Notes under the pieces: generated by a model
Told to the model about the DNA's origin: nothing
The model's input: the letters and a program-made list of their open reading frames with translations, nothing else
The model's database searches: none
In this document: positions 956 through 62,295 of the stretch, in pieces
Layout: each line of letters begins with the position of its first letter
Position numbering within the stretch: position 1 is the stretch's first letter
Program-made: the position numbers and the translations under genes
DNA from: an uncultured Algimonas sp.
GTDB taxonomy: Bacteria > Pseudomonadota > Alphaproteobacteria > Caulobacterales > Maricaulaceae
DNA length: 64,000 bases
NCBI RefSeq assembly: GCF_947498175.1
Contig: NZ_CANMJB010000001.1
Location: forward strand, 434,001-498,000
Direction: 5' to 3'

Positions 956-1243
956 TTAGAATATTTGGCTTGCGTCCTGTCTGCCGATTACACGGCGTAT
1001 CAAGATAATGCCGGACCCTTCCTTTTCGAAGTAGATGACGTTCGAGCGGAAAACGCTACGACGTAATCCAGCACGTTCCGAACCGACCAAAGGAAACAGC
1101 TCAGGAGACGTGCAAAGAAGGTCTAGATGCGAGAGCAGTTCCGAAACGTAGCGCTCTGCGAGATGCTCACCGAAGCGTTCGATACCGAACGTGAAAATGT
1201 TATCGAGATCCTCGTCGGCTTTCGCGGAAAGCTTAACCGGCAC
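956..1243 (-). CDS. parE: ParE/RelE-superfamily toxin
   Basis: A 95-residue protein with the small ParE-type plasmid-stabilisation toxin layout: N-terminal helices ([10 protein letters not shown], then [14 protein letters not shown]), a central [24 protein letters not shown] strand region and a C-terminal [12 protein letters not shown] strand. ParE toxins inhibit DNA gyrase and RelE relatives cleave mRNA on ribosomes; the FRSNVIYFE core and the ParD-like partner favour ParE. Its start overlaps the antitoxin stop by 11 bases, the usual translational coupling of antitoxin first, toxin second. No frame disruption is visible, so it looks intact. The target is inferred from family only. Confidence 0.88.
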
Positions 1244-1481
1244 GGCGATGATGCCGAGCCTTTACATCTTCCCAAATTTCGGAGGGTGACCGCTCGCTTA
1301 TTCCGGACTCATATCCCTTATCGAGTTCGGCGCGGATCCAGTCAATTCGACGTTCTCTTCGACGCTCCTGTCTAACGAGGTCATTGATGACATCGCTCTT
1401 ACTCGAATACTCACCTTTCGCGACTTGAGTTTGTAACCACTTGTCGTTGGCATCGGTGAATGTGACACTTTGACGGGACAT
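1233..1481 (-). CDS. parD: ParD-family ribbon-helix-helix antitoxin
   Basis: An 82-residue antitoxin. The N-terminal SVTFTDANDKWLQTQVAKGEYSSKSDVINDLVR segment has the ribbon-helix-helix pattern (beta strand, helix with KGEYSSKSDVI turn, second helix) used for dimerisation and operator binding. The highly charged C-terminal half (RRRERRIDWIRAELDKG and the SPSEIWEDVKARH tail) is the expected toxin-neutralising arm. The ATG at 1479-1481 was chosen because homologues start just before the first strand; longer in-frame extensions would run into hemA. It precedes the toxin with an 11-base overlap, and the promoter region carries a perfect inverted repeat at 1491-1514, consistent with autoregulation. 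Confidence 0.88.
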   Translation of the reverse strand: MSRQSVTFTDANDKWLQTQVAKGEYSSKSDVINDLVRQERRRERRIDWIRAELDKGYESGISERSPSEIWEDVKARHHRRAG

Positions 1482-1490
1482 GAGCACTTC

Positions 1491-1514
1491 CTTTGGTGCG
1501 ACATTGCACCAAAG
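1491..1514 (-). promoter_or_regulatory. inverted-repeat operator of the parDE pair
   Basis: A perfect 9-base inverted repeat, CTTTGGTGC / GCACCAAAG with a 6-base spacer, lies 9 bases upstream of the antitoxin start and 11 bases beyond the hemA stop. A further GATGCACC half-site follows at 1514-1521. Ribbon-helix-helix antitoxins bind such palindromes to repress their own operon, so this is the likely ParD operator. Binding is inferred. Confidence 0.65.
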
Positions 1515-1525
1515 ATGCACCACAT

Positions 1526-2758
1526 TCAAGCCGCCTCGACGTGCTCCAGCTCGAACTCGTCCCACACTTCCGATAGCGCGCTCATCAACTCGTCCATCAT
1601 CGCGTCGGTGTGGAACGGGCTGGGCGTGAAGCGCAAGCGTTCCGTACCGCGAGGGACGGTCGGGAAGTTGATCGGCTGGGCGTAGATGCCGTAATCTTCG
1701 ATCAACCGGTCGCTGACCGCCTGGCACTTGACCGGATCGCCGACCATGAGCGGGACGATATGCGTGTCCCCGTCGATGAAGGGATAGCCGGCGGCGCGGA
1801 ACCGGGCCTTCAAGACATTGGCGCGGTCCTGATGACGGTCGCGCATTTGCGGACTGATCTTGAGCACACGCACGGAGCGAAGAGCGCCCGCGGCCGTGGA
1901 GGGTGGAATGGAGGTGGTGAAGATGAAGCCGGAGGCCAAGCTGCGGATCGCATCGACGATCACCCGGTCGGCCGCGATATAGCCGCCGATCATGCCGAAC
2001 GCCTTGGCCAGCGTCCCTTGGATGATGTCGACCCGGTCCATCAGGCCGCGCGCTTCGCAGACGCCGCCGCCTCTCGGCCCGTACATGCCCACGGCGTGGA
2101 CTTCGTCGATATAGGTCAGCGCGCCGTACCGGTCGGCCAGATCGCAGATGCCTTCGATCGGCGCGATGTCCGCATCCATGGAATAGACGCTCTCGAAGGC
2201 GATCAGCTTGGGCGCATCCGCCGGTATGGCTTTAAGCTTTTCTTCCAGATCATTGAGATCGTTGTGCTTGAAGATGTGCTTGTGCGTCCGGGCGTTGCGG
2301 ATCCCGGAGATCATGGAGGCATGATTCATTTCGTCCGACAGGATGTGCAGATCCGGCAGGATCTTGCTCATGGTGGACAGCGCCGCTTCGTTGGCGACGT
2401 AGCCGGAGGTGAAGACGAGCGACGCTTCCTTGGCGTGCAGATCGGCCAGCTCGCTCTCCAGCTGCACGTGGTAGCGCGTGGTGCCGGAGATGTTGCGCGT
2501 TCCGCCGGATCCGGTCCCGGCCGCTTCGACGGCGGACTTGACGGCCTCTACCACGCAATTGTTCTGGCCCATGCCGAGATAGTCGTTGGAGCACCAGACG
2601 GTGATGTCTTGTTCGCTGTGATCGTCCTTGAACCAGGTCGCCCGCGGGAACGCGCCTTTCTTGCGACGGATGTCGCGGAAGATCCTGTAACGCCCTTCCG
2701 CCCGGACGGCATCGACGGCCGCCTTGAACTGATCCCTGTATCGTACCGATGTGGTCAC
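1526..2758 (-). CDS. hemA: 5-aminolevulinate synthase (C4 pathway)
   Basis: Condenses glycine with succinyl-CoA to 5-aminolevulinate, the first committed step of heme synthesis in alphaproteobacteria and mitochondria. The 410 residues are full length for the alpha-oxoamine synthase family. Visible landmarks are the CSNDYLGMG segment near 56, [11 protein letters not shown] near 83-93, the PLP-binding DEVHAVG (D218, H221) and the Schiff-base lysine K252 in GTLAKAFG. It is transcribed divergently from hemB, the next enzyme, with 131 bases between the starts, which suggests joint control of the pathway. A toxin-antitoxin pair follows directly downstream. Confidence 0.98.
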
Positions 2759-11527: not shown

Positions 11528-12574
11528 ATGTTGATCGAAGCGACCGGGCTTCGCACGCACATCTGGAACAACAATCTGCGCAGCGTGGCTCTGCTGTGCT
11601 TTTTCCCGGTTCTGTTACTGCTCCTCTTCTACGGCCTCCTGATCGGTTTCGTCGGCATGTCCGGATCGGGCACGCTCGAAACGGGACTGACCGAAGCCGC
11701 CGCCATGCTGCCGACCGCCGCGCCCTACGCGCTTGCCGGAGCCGGGGCCTGGTTCGGGATCGCCTTCTTCAGCCACAACGCCATGATCAATGCGGCGACG
11801 CGCGCCAAACCGGTGACGCCGAGCCAGGAGCCGCGCGCCTATCGCATGCTCGAGACGCTCTCCATCTCGCGCGGCCTCACGACGCCGCGCCTGATGGTGA
11901 TGGAAACGCCCGCCATGAACGCGTTCGCGTCAGGCATTCGCAAGGAAAACTACCAAGTCACGCTGACGCGCGGCCTGATGGACGCGCTGGACGACGAGGA
12001 GCTGGAAGCCGTCATCGCGCACGAACTCAGCCACATCATGCACAAGGATGTGCGGATGCTGATCATCGCGGTGATCTTCGTCGGCATCTTCGCCTTCGTC
12101 GGCGAGATGATCTTCCGCAACATGTTCCGGGTGAATTTCGCGCGCTCGTCCAATCACCGCCGTTCGGGCGGCGGCAATGCCGGCGTGCTGATCCTCGTCG
12201 CTTTCGTCGTCGTGGCACTCACCTACGTCATCGCGCTGATGATCCGCTTCACCATGAGCCGGAAGCGCGAATACATGGCTGACGCCGGTGCGGTGGAGCT
12301 GACCAAGAACCCCGATGCCATGATCCGCGCCCTGCAGAAGATTTCCGGGAACGCCGAAATGGCGACCGTGCCGGACGAAGTGCGCGAAATGGCGCTCTAC
12401 AATCCGCGCACGGGCCTGGCGGGTTTGTTCACGACCCATCCCCCGATCGAGAAACGGATCGAGGCGTTGGTGAAATATGCAGGTGGCCGCACCGACACGC
12501 AAAGCCGTCCAAGGCGGCGGCATCCGCAATCTAGCCGCTCGGCCGGAGGCGATCTTCGCAATCCGTGGCTGTAA
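11528..12574 (+). CDS. HtpX-like M48 family membrane metalloprotease
   Basis: A 348-residue integral membrane zinc protease. Membrane segments lie near residues 21-43, 62-82, 178-195 and 220-240. The catalytic HELSH motif is at about 164-168 (VIAHELSHIMHKD), and the third zinc-ligand glutamate lies in the conserved REYMADAGAVELT near 250. The C-terminal HPPIEKRIEAL is a family signature. It probably degrades or surveys damaged membrane proteins. It begins 15 bases after lemA and is followed on the same strand by another protease gene. The basic, low-complexity last 30 residues (RTDTQSRPRRRHPQSS) are unusual. Confidence 0.92.
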   Translation: MLIEATGLRTHIWNNNLRSVALLCFFPVLLLLLFYGLLIGFVGMSGSGTLETGLTEAAAMLPTAAPYALAGAGAWFGIAFFSHNAMINAATRAKPVTPSQEPRAYRMLETLSISRGLTTPRLMVMETPAMNAFASGIRKENYQVTLTRGLMDALDDEELEAVIAHELSHIMHKDVRMLIIAVIFVGIFAFVGEMIFRNMFRVNFARSSNHRRSGGGNAGVLILVAFVVVALTYVIALMIRFTMSRKREYMADAGAVELTKNPDAMIRALQKISGNAEMATVPDEVREMALYNPRTGLAGLFTTHPPIEKRIEALVKYAGGRTDTQSRPRRRHPQSSRSAGGDLRNPWL

Positions 12575-12645
12575 TCCTATCTATGGACAGCCGCGCCTTC
12601 GGCAATTACGAAAAATCAAATCAAAACGACGTTCAGGGGACTTTC

Positions 12646-15555
12646 ATGACTTCCAAGCTTGCCCGCTTTCTTCTTCTCGGCACCGCCACCATCGCTTTCG
12701 CAGCCTGCCAGCCGGCCGATGACACAGCTTCGACCGACTCACCGGAGGCCGCCGTCAGCGAGACCGTCGAAACCACCGCAGTGCCGGACCGGTTCGAACT
12801 GGTCGAGCGCTACACGGGCGAGGATGCCGAAGTCGCGATTCCATACGAGAAATACGTTCTGGACAATGGCCTGACCGTCGTCCTGCACGAAGACGATAGC
12901 GACCCGCTTGTCCATGTGGATGTAACGTATCATGTCGGCTCGGGCCGCGAGGAGATCGGCCGCTCGGGGTTCGCACACTTCTTCGAACATATGATGTTCC
13001 AGGGCTCGGAGAACGTCGCCGACGAACAGCACTTCAAGCTGATCACCGAGTCGGGCGGGACGTTGAACGGCACGACGAACTCCGACCGCACTAACTACTT
13101 CCAGACCGTGCCGAGCAATCAGCTGGAGCGCATGTTGTGGCTGGAAGCGGATCGCATGGGGTATTTCCTCGACGCCGTCACGCAGGAAAAGTTCGAAGTC
13201 CAGCGCGAGACCGTCAAGAACGAACGCGGTCAGCGTATCGACAACCGCCCCTATGGCCTGCTGGGCGAGCGCATCGGGGAAGCCATGTATCCCGAAGGAC
13301 ACCCCTATAGCTGGTCCGTGATCGGTTACATGGAGGATCTGGACCGCGCCGATCTGGACGATCTGAAGCGTTTCTTCCTGCGCTGGTACGGGCCCAACAA
13401 CGCCACGCTGACGATCGGCGGGGATATCGACAAGGCCGAGACATTGGCCATGGTGGAGAAATATTTCGGCTCCATCCCGCGCGGCCCGGAAGTCGAAAAA
13501 CCCGAGAAGCCGCCAGTCGAGCTGGACCAGGACCGTTACATCTCGCTCGAAGACAATGTCCAGCTGCCGCTGCTCTACATGGCTTGGCCGACCGTGTCGG
13601 CGAACCATCCGAACGAAGCGCCGCTAGACGTGTTGCAGAACATCATGGGCGGTGGACAGACGTCCTTGCTCTACAAGAACCTCGACAAACCCGGGCTGAC
13701 CGTTCAGTCCGGCGCCGGTCACGGCTGCCGCGAACTGCATTGCATGTTCACCCTCATCGCCGTGGCCAATCCCGCCAATGTGCAAAGCCTGTCGGAACTG
13801 GAGCCGATCCTGCGCGACAGCTTTACGGAGTTCGAGGAACGCGGCGTCCAGGATGATGATCTGACCCGGGTCAAATCCTCGATCGTGTCCGGGCTGATCT
13901 ATGGATTGGAGTCCGTTTCCGGAAAGGTCTCGCAGCTGGCGTTCTATGAGACGTTCCGTGATACGCCCAACGGGATTTCCGACGACATCGAGCGTTACCG
14001 CAATGTCACCAAGGCGGATGTCGAGCGCGTCTATAACGAATACATCAAGGATAAGCCGGCCGTCATCATGTCGATCGTGCCGAAGGGGCAGCCGCAAATG
14101 GTCGCGCGCGAAGATACGTGGGACCGTTACGAACGCACCATACCGCCCAAGCAAGCCGCAGAGGACATCGAATGGACGATGCCGAGCGACGACTTCGACC
14201 GCTCCATCATCCCGGCGCCTGGCGAAAACCCGTCGATCAAGGCCCCCGACGTCTATGAAGGATCAGTCGCAGGCATCCCCGTCATGGGCGCCGTGAATGC
14301 TGAAACGCCGACCACGACGATCCAGATCCGCATGGATGTGGGCCAGAAGGAAGAACCGCTCGACAAGCTCGGCCTCGCCTCCCTGACGATGCAGATGGTC
14401 AGCGAAGCATCGGAGACGATGAGCGTGGAAGACCGGTCCAACGAACTCGACAAGCTCGGCTCGTCCATCAACGCGCAGGCCGGGGATGTGGAATCGACTC
14501 TGACGATCCGCACCTTGTCCGATAATCTGGACGAGACGGTCGCATTGGCCGTGGATACGCTGACCAGTCCGGCCTTCAGCCAGGAGGATTTCGACCGCGT
14601 CAAGGCCAATCAACTCCAAGGCATCGAGGCTTCGAAGAAGAATCCAGGCTATGTCGCGACGACCCTGTTCGACAAGATGGCATACGGCACTGGCAATGCT
14701 TTCGCCTACCCGCAGAGCGGCACGGCGGAAACGGTGCAGTCGATCACGCTGGACGATGTCAGGGCGTTCTACGACGCTCACGTCTCGCCAACCATTGGCA
14801 GCATCCTGGTCGTGTCGAACCTGTCGCAATCCGAGATCGAAGAAGCGCTCGCACCGTTGAGCGCGTGGGAAGGCGGCGATGTCGAACTGGCCGCGATCAC
14901 GCCGAGCCTGTCGGCCGAACCGGGCACGATCTACTTCGTGGACAAGCCCGACGCGGCTCAGTCGGAAATCCGCATCGGCAAGCCGTCCCTGTCCTATTCG
15001 CCAACGGGCGAGTATTACCGGTCCACCCTGATGAACTTCCCGCTCGGCGGAGCGTTCAATTCGCGCATCAATCTGAACCTGCGCGAAGACAAGGGCTACA
15101 CCTACGGTGCGGGTTCGCGGTTCATCGGCCAGCTCGACCGCGGTCAGTACCGCGCCTTCGGCGCTGTGCGCTCCGACGTCACGACGGAGTCGCTGCAGGA
15201 ATTCCTCACGGAGATCCGCGGTTTTCATGAGAACGGACCGACGGAAGAAGAGATCGAGTTCACGAAATCCGCCATCGGCCAGTCCGAAGCGCGTCAGTAC
15301 GAGACGCCGTTTCAAAAGCTGGGCCTATTGTCGCGGATGAACACCTACGATGTCGGGCCGGAGCATATCGCGGAGCAGAAACGCATTCTCGAAGCGTTCA
15401 CGCGCGACGAGTCTGCGACACTCGCGGCCGAACATCTCGACCTGGACGACATGTTCATCGTCGTGGTCGGCGATAAGGCGACCCAGATGGAGAAGCTCGA
15501 AACGCTGGGCCTGCCGATCGTCGAAGTCGATGCGGACGGCAATCCGGTTGAATAG
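12646..15555 (+). CDS. M16 (pitrilysin) family zinc protease, lipoprotein
   Basis: A 969-residue double-length M16 peptidase. The ATG at 12646 has a strong AGGGGA ribosome site and gives a lipoprotein signal peptide ending in FAAC (C21); an upstream in-frame start at 12565 would bury the signal. The inverted zinc motif HFFEH is at 111-115, with the downstream glutamate in TVKNERGQR. A second, catalytically inactive M16 half starts near residue 540. The protein is probably anchored in the envelope and digests peptides or misfolded proteins. A bidirectional terminator follows. Confidence 0.93.
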   Translation: MTSKLARFLLLGTATIAFAACQPADDTASTDSPEAAVSETVETTAVPDRFELVERYTGEDAEVAIPYEKYVLDNGLTVVLHEDDSDPLVHVDVTYHVGSGREEIGRSGFAHFFEHMMFQGSENVADEQHFKLITESGGTLNGTTNSDRTNYFQTVPSNQLERMLWLEADRMGYFLDAVTQEKFEVQRETVKNERGQRIDNRPYGLLGERIGEAMYPEGHPYSWSVIGYMEDLDRADLDDLKRFFLRWYGPNNATLTIGGDIDKAETLAMVEKYFGSIPRGPEVEKPEKPPVELDQDRYISLEDNVQLPLLYMAWPTVSANHPNEAPLDVLQNIMGGGQTSLLYKNLDKPGLTVQSGAGHGCRELHCMFTLIAVANPANVQSLSELEPILRDSFTEFEERGVQDDDLTRVKSSIVSGLIYGLESVSGKVSQLAFYETFRDTPNGISDDIERYRNVTKADVERVYNEYIKDKPAVIMSIVPKGQPQMVAREDTWDRYERTIPPKQAAEDIEWTMPSDDFDRSIIPAPGENPSIKAPDVYEGSVAGIPVMGAVNAETPTTTIQIRMDVGQKEEPLDKLGLASLTMQMVSEASETMSVEDRSNELDKLGSSINAQAGDVESTLTIRTLSDNLDETVALAVDTLTSPAFSQEDFDRVKANQLQGIEASKKNPGYVATTLFDKMAYGTGNAFAYPQSGTAETVQSITLDDVRAFYDAHVSPTIGSILVVSNLSQSEIEEALAPLSAWEGGDVELAAITPSLSAEPGTIYFVDKPDAAQSEIRIGKPSLSYSPTGEYYRSTLMNFPLGGAFNSRINLNLREDKGYTYGAGSRFIGQLDRGQYRAFGAVRSDVTTESLQEFLTEIRGFHENGPTEEEIEFTKSAIGQSEARQYETPFQKLGLLSRMNTYDVGPEHIAEQKRILEAFTRDESATLAAEHLDLDDMFIVVVGDKATQMEKLETLGLPIVEVDADGNPVE

Positions 15556-30100: not shown

Positions 30101-30301
30101 CTAGCCGAAGTCCTGCTTGTTGCGGCTCGGAACCCCGTTGACCATGTTGGACCGGACGTCCGTGCGCGCGGAGCGCATGGAGGCCAGGAATCCACCTTGG
30201 ACGAGATTGATCTTCACGTCGTGACCGCGTTCGGCCCAGTAGGCCTCGATCTGCTGCTTCAAACGCTCTGCGCCTTCGCGCGTGCAATAATCACCTTTCA
30301 T
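30101..30301 (-). CDS. small conserved-looking protein, function unknown
   Basis: A 66-residue protein. The ATG at 30299-30301 has GAAGGA eight bases upstream. The sequence begins KGDYCTREGAERLKQQIEAYWAERGHDVKINLVQGGF, a helix followed by a strand with a single cysteine at residue 6, and ends in a basic, polar tail (SRNKQDFG). Short proteins with this REGAERLxxxIExYWxxRG pattern are familiar from alphaproteobacterial genomes, but no function is known to me. It converges with gph at an 11-base gap. Confidence 0.7.
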   Translation of the reverse strand: MKGDYCTREGAERLKQQIEAYWAERGHDVKINLVQGGFLASMRSARTDVRSNMVNGVPSRNKQDFG

Positions 30302-30487
30302 GGCGTTGTTTCCTTCGTAATGGTGTAGATGACGTCGCACCCGCGAGAGCGCGTCATGTTCGTGTGGCATTTCCCGTAGACACAGTTAAGAAATCGATCT
30401 TTATGGCACAACGCCCGTCATTCGGATTTCTTATGTATTGTTGGTAATACTTATCACAATTATTGAGGTTCAGCCCCCATTCATTTT

Positions 30488-30516
30488 ATGCATTTCCGCA
30501 ATGCTGGTATGCATTT
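30488..30516 (+). promoter_or_regulatory. paired ATGCATTT direct repeats upstream of the HTH regulator
   Basis: Two identical ATGCATTT octamers begin at 30488 and 30509, 21 bases apart, i.e. two helical turns on one DNA face, in an AT-rich gap of about 270 bases between two divergent genes. The spacing suggests an operator for the adjacent HTH protein. No experimental support is available. Confidence 0.35.
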
Positions 30517-30575
30517 GATAAAAGCAACAGGCTTTGTCACATCGACCCCGTCACCCCGTAAATATAAGTTAAGTT

Positions 30576-31103
30576 ATGAGTCTGGCCAAACGCCTCAAGG
30601 ACACGCGCAAGAAACACGGTCTGTCCCAAAGCGAGCTCGCCAAACAGGTCGAAGTCTCGCAGCCCTCCATCGCCAATTGGGAGCGTGGTGGCCACACGCC
30701 GCGCCGCGATGCGCTGGACCGGATCGCCAAGGCGCTGGACACGGACCCGACTTGGCTATTGTCCGGAGAAATGCCGGCGTCACGCAATCCTGCGCACCAG
30801 CATCTGGCCAAACCGATCCATCACATCGCGGTTTATGACTGGCCGAGCGGTCCGACCGATCCACGCCAGGGCCAACCTGTACGCTATCTGGCCGTGGCGG
30901 GCGACACGACAGACCTGTTCGCACTCAACGCCGTGCCGGAAACAGGCTTTCCGGAAGGCTCGTTTCTAATCTTCTCGGCGACGGAACGACGCCTGCCGGG
31001 CCAGTTCCTTGCGAAAACGAGAACGGGCTGCGACCTGTCCGAACGCACCCTATTCGGCGATGATATCCTCGCCCGTCTCGTCTATTCGGTCGTGCCGCAC
31101 TAG
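30576..31103 (+). CDS. HTH-type regulator with LexA/CI-like C-terminal half
   Basis: A 175-residue transcription factor. Residues about 3-60 form an XRE/Cro helix-turn-helix (LAKRLKDTRKKHGLSQSELAKQVEVSQPSIANWERGGHTPRRDALDRIAKAL). The remainder (about 85-175) resembles the LexA/CI S24 fold (RYLAVAGDTTDLFALNAVPETGFPEGSFLIFS and the final DDILARLVYSVV), but no serine occupies the GDS-M position, where TT is found, so self-cleavage is unlikely. A sensory domain without protease activity is the inference. The last 54 bases overlap the opposite-strand MATCAP-like gene. Confidence 0.82.
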   Translation: MSLAKRLKDTRKKHGLSQSELAKQVEVSQPSIANWERGGHTPRRDALDRIAKALDTDPTWLLSGEMPASRNPAHQHLAKPIHHIAVYDWPSGPTDPRQGQPVRYLAVAGDTTDLFALNAVPETGFPEGSFLIFSATERRLPGQFLAKTRTGCDLSERTLFGDDILARLVYSVVPH

Positions 31104-57653: not shown

Positions 57654-59291
<1,638 letters not shown>

Positions 59292-59298
59292 GTGAGGT

Positions 59299-59339
59299 CG
59301 GGCGCGGCTCGCCGCGCCCGCAGCCTGCCTCCGGCAGGC
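59299..59339 (+). other. two strong hairpins in the groEL 3' region
   Basis: A 10-bp stem CGGGCGCGGC / GCCGCGCCCG with a TC turn (59299-59320) is followed by a 7-bp stem GCCTGCC / GGCAGGC with loop TCC (59323-59339), starting eight bases after the groEL stop. They may stabilise or process the groESL transcript. Confidence 0.6.
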
Positions 59340-59351
59340 GTACCGAACTTA

Positions 59352-59368
59352 CCCGGACTTGATCCGGG
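59352..59368. repeat. dispersed palindromic repeat, copy 2
   Basis: CCCGGA and TCCGGG arms with loop CTTGA; the 17-base core is identical to the copy at 54378-54394. Confidence 0.6.
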
Positions 59369-59406
59369 GTCTCCCGAGACTTGTTCGCTAGCTCGACTAA
59401 AGAAAA

Positions 59407-59435
59407 GGCCGCTTCCGATTGGGGGCGGCCTTTTT
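59407..59435. terminator. rho-independent terminator after groEL
   Basis: GGCCGC / GCGGCC arms, extended by inner CC-GG pairs around a short loop, are preceded by AAAA and followed by TTTTT. It separates groESL from the AT-rich GHKL gene. Confidence 0.88.
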
Positions 59436-59471
59436 ACTTGCTCCAAACTTACTTTGCGGCATTTAGGTAGT

Positions 59472-61061
59472 GTGACAGGAGTTTACAAATCCGAGATTGA
59501 CCGGATCGACAGCACGCCTAACAAGCGACTTTTTTGGTCGATAATAAGCGATTATAACACGCTTTTGGCTCTTTTGGAGTTGGTCGACAATGCTGTCGAC
59601 CTAGCCACAAAAAATAGCTCTTTATCAGAACTTCGAGTTTCAATCGACCTCGATCATCAACGTCAGATAGTTTCAATCACAGACAACGCAGGCGGAGTTG
59701 AGCACCGAGACCTTGGCCTTTTAGTCACTCCAGGCGGCAGCGGACACAATCCTGATGAACAGGTGATTGGGATATTTGGCGTTGGCAGCAAACGCGCAGG
59801 AGTCGCTCTAGGGGAACATATAGAAATTAGAACACGTAAAGCTGAAGGTCCAACATTACAAATCGAAGTGACGAAGGATTGGTTGCTAACCGATGAGTGG
59901 GAGGTGCCAGTTTATCAAGTTGACGACATCGAAGCGAGTAGCACTTGCATTACTATAACACGGCTTCGACGTATATTGACGGATGCAGATATAGGCTATG
60001 TAAGAGAGAAACTATCTGAAACATATGCAAAGTATATACTGCAAGGAGTAATTATTGAATTGAACGGAACACCGATACAGTCCAGGCAATTTTCAAATTG
60101 GAGTTATCCTCCAGAGCATCTTCCAACTAAAACAGAAATTGAGCTTACCGATCCAGAGTTCGGATTAGTAAAGACGATTATTACAAGCGGTCTGATTGCA
60201 GACCGTGTACCTGATAAAAATAATTACGGCGTATATTTTTACTGTAACGACCGCCTTATAGAGAAAGAGCACCGATCAAGAGAAGTTGGTTATAATAACT
60301 CGCAGCTAGCTGGAGTGCCACACCCGGACGCATCACTTTGTAGAGTTATAGTAGAATTTAATGGCGCAGCAGGCGCAATGCCTTGGAATAGTAGTAAATC
60401 CCAAGTCATGTTTGATAATTACTGTTTGAAAAAGGTACAACCAACCATTATTGCATTGTGCAGTCGATACTCAAAAGTTTCTAGAGCACTAAAGAAAACG
60501 TGGAACGAAACTGTAACGCCTTTTTGCGAAGGTGACGTTAGGTCTGTTAAGCCTGAAGTTCTCGGCTCAGCCAGCCAACACATATTTCCTCCTTTACCAA
60601 GGCAAAGGCAAAACGCTTTTGATCGGCTTCTTGCCCAGAATGCTCAGCTAATCGATGAAGAACCTTGGCTACGCGGACTTGTAGAGGCGATGGCTTTTGT
60701 TGACCTTGTCTCTCGCAAAAGAGTGTCCACAAACAATCGAGTTGCTTTGATTTTGTTAGATAGCAATTTCGAAATAGCGTTAAAGGAGTTTATTGTCCAC
60801 AGGAAGGACATCTTCCCAAAATCTGAATACGATGATGTGAAGTTACTAAACATTTTTAAAAATAGATCTGACGTTTTATTACACGTAACCAATAAAATCT
60901 GCATTCCAGATGAACTGATCGTCAAAGCAGAACATTACTACCTTCTTAGAAATAAACTTATACATGAAAGAACCACAGCTGCTATTACCAATACTGACGT
61001 CAAGGATTACAGAAATGTAGTGGCTGAAATGCTTAACATTCTACATACATTGGAAGTTTAA
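59472..61061 (+). CDS. GHKL (Hsp90/MORC-like) ATPase with C-terminal HEPN-like RNxxxH motif
   Basis: A 529-residue protein read from the GTG at 59472 (AGG just upstream); longer in-frame starts would run back through the groEL terminator. The GHKL ATPase fold is clear: N-box ELVDNAVDLA near 36-45, G1 DNAGG at 71-75, G2 GIFGVGSKRAG at 100-110. The later part is helical and ends with RNKLIHE, where R493 and H498 fit the HEPN RNase pattern R-polar-x3-H. The gene is strikingly AT-rich (one 60-base line has 23 G+C, against 38 in a groEL line), with different codon usage, suggesting recent transfer. The fused ATPase and possible RNase suggest a defence or stress role; the function is not established. 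Confidence 0.85.
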   Translation: MTGVYKSEIDRIDSTPNKRLFWSIISDYNTLLALLELVDNAVDLATKNSSLSELRVSIDLDHQRQIVSITDNAGGVEHRDLGLLVTPGGSGHNPDEQVIGIFGVGSKRAGVALGEHIEIRTRKAEGPTLQIEVTKDWLLTDEWEVPVYQVDDIEASSTCITITRLRRILTDADIGYVREKLSETYAKYILQGVIIELNGTPIQSRQFSNWSYPPEHLPTKTEIELTDPEFGLVKTIITSGLIADRVPDKNNYGVYFYCNDRLIEKEHRSREVGYNNSQLAGVPHPDASLCRVIVEFNGAAGAMPWNSSKSQVMFDNYCLKKVQPTIIALCSRYSKVSRALKKTWNETVTPFCEGDVRSVKPEVLGSASQHIFPPLPRQRQNAFDRLLAQNAQLIDEEPWLRGLVEAMAFVDLVSRKRVSTNNRVALILLDSNFEIALKEFIVHRKDIFPKSEYDDVKLLNIFKNRSDVLLHVTNKICIPDELIVKAEHYYLLRNKLIHERTTAAITNTDVKDYRNVVAEMLNILHTLEV

Positions 61062-61833: not shown

Positions 61834-62295
61834 CTACAGTGGCAGCTCCGTCGTGAATTTCAGCTTCTCCATCGCGAAGCTGGCCGACACGTCGCTGATC
61901 CTGACTTTCGCGATCAGTTGCTGATAAACCCGGTCATAGTCGGCGACCGACGCGATCAGGATCTTCAGGATGTAGTCGACCTCGCCCGCCAGCCGGTAGA
62001 ACTCCACGATTTCCGGGATCGCATCGACGGCGGCGGCGAAGTCGGCGGACCACGCGGCGGAATGGTCGTCGGTGCGGACCTGCACGAAGGTGGTCAGCGG
62101 CAGGCCGAGCTTCTCGTTGTCGAGCAGCGCGACGCGGCGTTCGATCACCCCGTCCTCCTCCAGGCGCCGCACCCGGCGCCAGACCGTGTTCAGCGACACG
62201 CCGAGCGCCACCGCGATCGAGTCGAGCGATTGCGCCGCATCGGCTTGCAGCGATGCGAGGATGCGCCGGTCCGTGGTGTCGAGTTTCGCCGTCAT
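61834..62295 (-). CDS. Lrp/AsnC-family transcriptional regulator
   Basis: A 153-residue feast/famine regulator. Residues about 5-60 are the AsnC-type HTH (DTTDRRILASLQADAAQSLDSIAVALGVSLNTVWRRVRRLEEDGVIERRVALLD). The C-terminal RAM ligand domain spans about 70-150 with VDYILKILIASVADYDRVYQQLIAKVRISDVSASFAMEKLKFTTELPL. It is divergent from the cysteine-synthase-like gene, whose start may be as close as 26 bases, so it probably controls that enzyme in response to an amino acid. The ligand is unknown. Confidence 0.93.
   Translation of the reverse strand: MTAKLDTTDRRILASLQADAAQSLDSIAVALGVSLNTVWRRVRRLEEDGVIERRVALLDNEKLGLPLTTFVQVRTDDHSAAWSADFAAAVDAIPEIVEFYRLAGEVDYILKILIASVADYDRVYQQLIAKVRISDVSASFAMEKLKFTTELPL

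Follow-up and report, generated by a model that had tools for sequence, protein, structure and literature searches.

The GHKL clamp is the engine of MORC, MutL and Hsp90. As described by Iyer et al. (2008; PMC2292703), paraMORC1-5 combine a GHKL ATPase and an S5 domain with a variable C-terminal extension (REase, TIR or unknown) and are laterally mobile and linked to restriction-modification (R-M) systems; in the available part of that paper, a HEPN extension is named for none of the five, whereas the protein presented here is predicted to carry one. Anantharaman et al. (2013; PMC3710099) reported paraMORC GHKL ATPases fused to a C-terminal HEPN domain of the Ymh type (PF09509) and proposed a function like that of PrrC and RloC. 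In these anticodon nucleases a C-terminal HEPN RNase is held by an N-terminal ATPase (PMC3710099), as may be the case here, but their ATPase is of the ABC type and that of the present protein is GHKL. VcSduA (Shedu type I-D/paraMORC3) is antiphage and loses defence when either its ATPase or its nuclease is mutated (PMC12137116). In the accessible text on DefensePredictor (PMC13092281), HATPase is named in a legend covering predicted systems whose domains lack validation in defence; other HEPN systems are validated there. No characterised or tested GHKL-HEPN protein was found in the open-access literature searched, as far as the available texts go. An earlier note on this DNA, made from the sequence, had known of no characterised system with such a layout. 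This holds for the literature searched, but the layout itself dates from 2013, when it was described with a predicted defensive role (PMC3710099), and is thus less new than the note suggested.

Here we analyse a single gene in a stretch of 64,000 nucleotides from an uncultured Algimonas sp. (the window). Its product resembles the paraMORC-Ymh fusions in having an N-terminal GHKL ATPase and a predicted C-terminal HEPN domain in one protein. It differs from them in the absence of PF09509; RiboL-PSP proteins align with it somewhat better than Ymh proteins, both weakly. It also differs in its surroundings, the window gene lying outside R-M loci and its homologues often standing alone. With VcSduA it shares the architecture of a GHKL ATPase with a C-terminal nuclease, the latter predicted here, but the VcSduA nuclease is PD-(D/E)xK (DUF4263) instead of HEPN. 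We therefore describe the family as an often standalone variant of the 2013 fusion, probably non-Ymh (fair confidence, from profile comparison); some of its members may be among the 2013 examples.

The gene and its two domains

The features of the gene and its product are, in window coordinates:

59472-61061, forward strand: GHKL-HEPN gene, 529 aa, GTG start, TAA stop
59565-59933, forward strand: GHKL ATPase domain, residues 32-154 (Pfam HATPase_c_3, E 1.3e-9)
60396-60398, forward strand: Lys309 in MPWNSSK, invariant in 9/9 aligned proteins, proposed S5-domain lysine
60612-61058, forward strand: predicted C-terminal HEPN domain, residues 381-529 (model with pLDDT 91.4, fold search, Pfam on homologues)
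60771-60785, forward strand: HEPN Ex3K motif, E434-K438, invariant in 9/9 (motif definition in PMC3710099)
60948-60965, forward strand: HEPN Rx4H motif, R493, N494 to H498, invariant in 9/9

We scanned 84,980 species genomes once, within the limits set by exact peptide patterns, and obtained nine relatives among 30 candidate stretches. Five are alphaproteobacterial (Mesorhizobium, Bradyrhizobium, Phenylobacterium, Afipia and one further alphaproteobacterium), and the others come from Elusimicrobiota, Verrucomicrobiota (Lacunisphaera), Chloroflexota (Anaerolineales) and Acidobacteriota (Terriglobus), and the intact copies among them lie in five phyla. Eight of the nine have a full-length open frame. 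The exception (L010) covers residues 1-175 only, its frame stopping after about 198 codons, and we did not align it; the intact homologues are 44-47% identical to the window protein in the resulting alignment of nine. The open frame in the window spans 59292 to 61061, and a start at GTG 59472 gives 529 aa. Candidate start codons of the homologues fall within a few residues of this GTG, which supports the start chosen in the earlier note, and the intact single gene with complete GHKL boxes that it had described is indeed present.

The boxes read ELVDNA (E36, N40), DNAGG (D71, G74, G75) and GIFGVGSKRAG (G100, G103, G105), and all of these box residues are invariant in the nine aligned proteins. 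The ExxDN, DxxGG and GxxGxG boxes, together with a HATPase_c_3 match (E 1.3e-9) that exceeds the Pfam cut-off, place the protein in the GHKL ATPase superfamily; the one other Pfam match, HATPase_c, lies below its cut-off. By analogy with MutL and topoisomerases, we take Lys309 to be the S5-domain lysine that contacts the ATP phosphate. The whole-protein model has a pLDDT of 75.4 and falls below 50 at residues 1-14, 83-111, 276-286 and 364-380, which leaves the ATP lid and the domain linker uncertain. In a Foldseek search with this model, Hsp90/TRAP1 came first (6.7e-12), with MORC3 27th and MORC2 33rd. The label 'MORC-like' used before is therefore too loose; the predicted fold is that of a GHKL domain with an S5-type second domain, and the search indicates nothing beyond this.

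Other searches with the window protein returned little. NCBIfam gave two sub-threshold matches, and no PADLOC model matched. PHROGs gave six matches, the best to phrog_20521, a family listed as unknown (residues 8-204, 2.3e-13), and the others at 0.006 or weaker. A sequence search against solved structures found weak matches throughout (best HtpG, 0.086) and no HEPN structure.

The HEPN signature consists of Rx4-6H with a polar residue (N, D or H) after the arginine, often an Ex3[KR] motif, and a helical domain, according to the available text of PMC3710099. Each of these elements was found in the C-terminal part: RNKLIHE contains R493 and H498 with four residues in between, exactly as had been claimed, N494 is the polar residue, and E434-I-A-L-K438 forms the second motif. 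E434, K438, R493, N494 and H498 are all invariant in the nine aligned proteins, and so the proposed conservation of R493 and H498 held, the departure being a split plasmid copy, 34% identical, that has lost H498 (see below). When residues 381-529 were modelled alone, the model was all helical with a pLDDT of 91.4 and a pTM of 0.86. Compared with the PDB, it retrieved HEPN or HEPN-related chains at all of ranks 1-8, at E-values of 0.5-1.0: HepT of Shewanella, 1wwp, MntA-HepT (three chains), YutE, a HEPN domain protein and prophage HepS. These E-values are weak, 0.5 being the best and 0/162 matches reaching E <= 1e-3. We take the SO_3166 and YutE structures to be HEPN, and 1wwp is named as HEPN in PMC3710099. 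The structure prediction and fold search that the earlier note had proposed thus gave a HEPN-like model.

Sequence profiles are consistent with this assignment for some members of the family. Pfam HEPN_RiboL-PSP matched three of the nine C-termini (best 2.2e-4), the window member not among them; no HEPN model matched in the Pfam scan of the window protein, and a profile of the C-terminal alignment searched against solved structures gave one unrelated chance-level match and no HEPN. Using hhalign, we found that the RNKLIHE of the family aligns with the RxxxxH of RiboL-PSP proteins at E 0.004 and a probability of 8.5%, a weak match, and that Ymh proteins align more weakly still (E 0.082, probability 0.7%); the comparisons took in 5/20 RiboL-PSP loci and 3/4 of the Ymh loci fetched. 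Taking together conservation, structure prediction and, for some homologues, profile matches, the reading as a GHKL ATPase with a HEPN domain is supported. We assign the C-terminal domain to HEPN with high confidence on motif and model, its subfamily as non-Ymh with fair confidence from the profiles, and RiboL-PSP as its possible nearest type with low confidence.

Two candidate labels were tried and rejected. Ymh as the HEPN type found no PF09509 match, this model being absent in a Pfam scan from the window protein, the nine C-terminal domains and the genome to which the window belongs, and had the hhalign E-value of 0.082 given above. For Shedu, neither the window protein nor the nine C-termini had a Pfam match to the PD-(D/E)xK domain DUF4263, and the model is helical.

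Composition and the site behind groEL

The surroundings of the gene contain the following features:

57654-59291, forward strand: groEL, left border of the variable site
59402-59435, forward strand: groEL terminator-like hairpin (-25.7 kcal/mol, z -5.6, followed by a T-run), between groEL and the gene
61834-62295, reverse strand: Lrp/AsnC-like regulator, right border of the site, identity read from the translation

The sharp drop in base composition reported for the gene was confirmed. Its G+C content is 41.8% against 63.0% for the window, and the lowest-G+C stretch of 1590 bp in the window begins at 59481, within the gene; outside the gene region, stretches of this length average 63.4% (sd 2.0%), with a minimum of 58.0%. 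Third-position GC is 0.37 in the gene versus 0.87 in groEL. The gene also stands just beyond a groEL terminator, as had been noted, although the consensus terminator scan did not list the hairpin at 59402-59435; the strong hairpin with its T-run makes read-through from groEL unlikely. Repeats at the gene edges are short and mostly weak, no integrase was recognised by eye beside the gene, and no R-M or partner gene was recognised beside it among the window frames.

Two further frames in the window are associated with lower G+C. One, at 1233-1727 (reverse strand), lies in a lower-G+C stretch (0.516 at 1001-1500) and reads to us like a ParD-type antitoxin. The other, at 30576-31103 (forward strand), presumably encodes an XRE/LexA-like helix-turn-helix regulator; it adjoins a second such stretch (0.522 at 30251-30750) and is perhaps a prophage remnant.

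As had been suggested, we compared the interval between groEL and the Lrp-like gene in congeners. groEL was found in 13 of 18 genus genomes, the window's own included, and downstream DNA was taken from nine of the other 12; G001, G002 and G007 were dropped because groEL lay at a contig end or the match broke off. The fetched stretches (L030-L038) are about 6 kb long, and 10 kb for G015. None of the nine has the GHKL-HEPN gene behind groEL, and other genes are found there instead. Lrp-like and CysK-like genes lie within the fetched stretch in only two of them, at a distance of about 5.1 kb in G015 and about 1.6 kb in G006.

In four of the nine congeners the groEL 3' flank contains, within 3.5 kb, PADLOC-matching genes of other kinds. 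G015, the closest by GroEL, has an AT-rich AbiJ-like gene 78 bp on (L030 9006-9920, reverse strand; AbiJ_NTD4 below cut-off, PDC-S32 5e-53). G003 has a DUF262 protein 466 bp on (HEC-06, 3e-64), G010 a type II restriction enzyme with a methyltransferase 132 bp on, and G016 a DpnI-type enzyme 2.3 kb on, after a YaaC-like protein. In G008 the site is taken by an SH3 gene that is AT-rich and unmatched in PADLOC; ordinary genes are found in G006, G011 and G004, and genes of no clear role in G014, as judged by eye. The AbiJ-like gene of G015 also ends in a HEPN-type motif, RHSLIHE, and so pairs a different N-terminus with the same kind of putative effector.

As a control we took stretches of 3.5 kb from these nine genomes, lying some 15 kb downstream from groEL, with heuristic ORFs of at least 110 aa. 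Nine of 31 site ORFs had a GC not above 0.47, five of these falling at 0.34-0.44, compared with 0/30 control ORFs, which all lay at 0.49-0.60; the milder of the low values mean little, because some of the genomes have only about 50-53% G+C. The PADLOC scan of the site took in seven of the 31 ORFs, picked after the Pfam result, and matched five of the seven, with best E-values of 5e-44 to 2e-96. In the control, 17 families were matched, none in more than two members and at best at 7.8e-29. The site matches are stronger than these, and the control shows that weak PADLOC matches alone mean little. The groEL 3' flank is a variable site in the genus. No description of groEL as a defence hotspot was found in the available parts of the literature searched, where GroEL served as a blotting control in one paper and a map of E. 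coli hotspots in another was without a chaperone. The variable site behind groEL is a practical place to seek further defence genes in the genus.

Distribution of the family

Among 60 genomes, the window's own and its relatives, five match at E <= 1e-3. Besides the window's own genome, the match is full length only in G053, a member of the same order whose protein is the same as that of the Phenylobacterium homologue (L005); three others cover parts of residues 11-332. A full-length copy was found in 0/17 congeners, several being incomplete drafts. Presence at this locus across the genus, one of the three refuting outcomes named in the earlier note, was thus not seen, and neither were the other two. 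At the class level 2/289 genomes match, the window's own and G201, which has the same protein as L003; at the phylum level 4/398 match, two of them partially. In three other groups searched at a threshold of 1e-40, the seed genome alone matches (1/347, 1/277 and 1/268).

Mobile elements hold few relatives. Six of 72,556 plasmid records match, one over the whole length, in R. leguminosarum. This copy is 34% identical, lies on a conjugative plasmid and is annotated in two pieces; E434, N494 and H498 are lost, R493 and K438 kept, and the GHKL boxes are kept in the first piece. Unless this copy is decaying, it speaks against an invariant motif. Near it are annotated an AAA ATPase/endonuclease pair, a DUF4365 gene, a methyltransferase and a transposase. 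No relative was found in viral contigs scanned with the protein and with the alignment, and in a viral structure library no match reached E <= 0.001, a minor capsid protein coming closest with 0.33. One of 50,697 phage records matches: the filamentous Pseudomonas phage PfAC20 has a distant GHKL protein that covers query residues 16-312, the HEPN part lying outside. In this phage (L067 280-6082) two cytosine methyltransferase genes lie after the GHKL gene, the first of them beyond one hypothetical gene and the other at a greater distance; the region looks like defence cargo.

In a tree of the nine proteins, one of six inner branches is well supported and the window branch is long, so that transfer across phyla rests on patchiness and composition and not on topology. 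These observations suggest that the gene was laterally acquired; the family is rare and patchy.

Proposed function and alternatives

GHKL-S5 proteins dimerise and close on ATP. The presence of both GHKL-S5 and HEPN in one chain suggests that closure assembles the RNase, and we lean, without strong conviction, towards the reading that this is a one-gene antiphage effector, self-contained and acquired laterally, whose HEPN RNase is gated by closure of the GHKL module. The N-terminal GHKL-S5 module would form a dimeric clamp closed by ATP, which would sense an invader-related signal, most likely nucleic acid; by the precedent of MORC and paraMORC, DNA is the favoured trigger. On closure, the HEPN domains at the two C-termini would come together as an active, metal-independent endoRNase and cut cellular or phage RNA, so that growth or phage replication stops. 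HEPN domains are typically dimeric RNases (PMC13092281), but the dimer gating, RNase activity, trigger, target and phage protection proposed here are what we infer. The gene had been proposed as an antiphage candidate, and it keeps this standing through genomic context, at some homologue loci and in the groEL flank of congeners; its RNase activity and defence role are argued from sequence and analogy.

A broader proposal, which we make tentatively and hold to be somewhat doubtful, is that the family represents a distinct class of immune effector. Here a GHKL clamp closing on foreign nucleic acid would assemble a dimer of non-Ymh HEPN domains, and the solo gene would move between phyla and enter sites such as the groEL 3' flank.

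The neighbourhoods of the homologues speak, through defence genes at some loci, for the antiphage reading; they also bear on a different explanation, that the protein is an accessory or backup subunit of an R-M system, like PrrC with a type I system, which acts when restriction is inhibited and stands alone where its partners are elsewhere or lost. We called neighbouring genes heuristically at the eight intact homologue loci. R-M, Mrr or CBASS genes adjoin three of them: a type I R-M system at one (L007) and Mrr nucleases at two (L002 and L008). At L007 the gene lies inside the R-M locus, with HsdR upstream and HsdS ending about 22 bp before it, followed by DUF262 (GmrSD_N), a RiboL-PSP HEPN protein and HsdM. 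At L002 an Mrr nuclease begins the downstream side, about 120 bp from the gene, with a CBASS-type phospholipase, an oligonucleotide cyclase and a NucC-like nuclease match also present. L008 has an Mrr protein (PDC-S02) upstream, about 34 bp away, as well as a PDC-S14 protein. Fusions of paraMORC with HEPN have likewise been reported in R-M neighbourhoods (PMC3710099). Against an R-M role, no R-M gene was recognised beside the window gene, and neither phage-defence nor R-M genes were recognised among the neighbours scanned at L003, L004, L005, L006 and L009 (Pfam for 10 proteins; PADLOC for four, from L004, L006 and L009). We consider this explanation unlikely. The search for defence islands around homologues that the earlier note had called for was thus positive at three of eight loci and, among the neighbours scanned, negative at five.

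Several neighbours are worth recording in their own right. At L007 11882-13477, next to the homologue and between HsdS and HsdM, there are two genes, one for a DUF262 protein and the other for a free-standing RiboL-PSP HEPN protein. At L009 (Terriglobus), a 435-aa RelA/SpoT-domain protein with no PADLOC match (11591-12898, reverse strand) is convergent and about 16 bp off, and an RHS/Tlde1 protein neighbours the gene at L006.

It is improbable, in our view, that the HEPN domain is non-catalytic, serving to bind nucleic acid or to dimerise, and that the protein is a MORC-like DNA clamp. Some HEPN domains are thought to be inactive (PMC3710099), and the split R. leguminosarum copy has lost HEPN residues while its first piece keeps the GHKL boxes. 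An inactive domain, however, would not need the five signature residues, which are invariant in nine of nine proteins from five phyla.

We also give little credence to a stress-response or chaperone-like protein of the sacsin or Hsp90 type, for which the adjacency to groEL would be meaningful. GHKL domains have one common fold, and the leading rank of TRAP1/Hsp90 in the Foldseek search with the whole model therefore carries little weight. The sacsin-type NCBIfam domain NF047352 matches the window protein below its cut-off (26.3 versus 50 bits). Sacsin does combine Hsp90-like ATPase modules with HEPN in a single protein (PMC3710099), but it is a giant eukaryotic chaperone-type protein with other domains, and the present match to it is sub-threshold only. 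Moreover, a terminator-like hairpin separates groEL from the gene, and the nine congeners examined have other genes at this position. It is very improbable that the gene is selfish or toxin-like, as in toxin-antitoxin or addiction modules, and of no defensive benefit: HEPN RNases are the toxins of MntA-HepT pairs, as structure titles state, but no partner gene was recognised in the window and none was common to the homologue loci.

Returning to the antiphage effector, the pairing of GHKL and HEPN was predicted from sequence in 2013, and no test of it was found in the literature searched. As the gene is small, single and complete and has no recognised partner, it makes that prediction directly testable. 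If the prediction is true, RNA cleavage would join the outputs of prokaryotic MORC-like clamps, of which the PD-(D/E)xK version, VcSduA, is proven to be antiphage.
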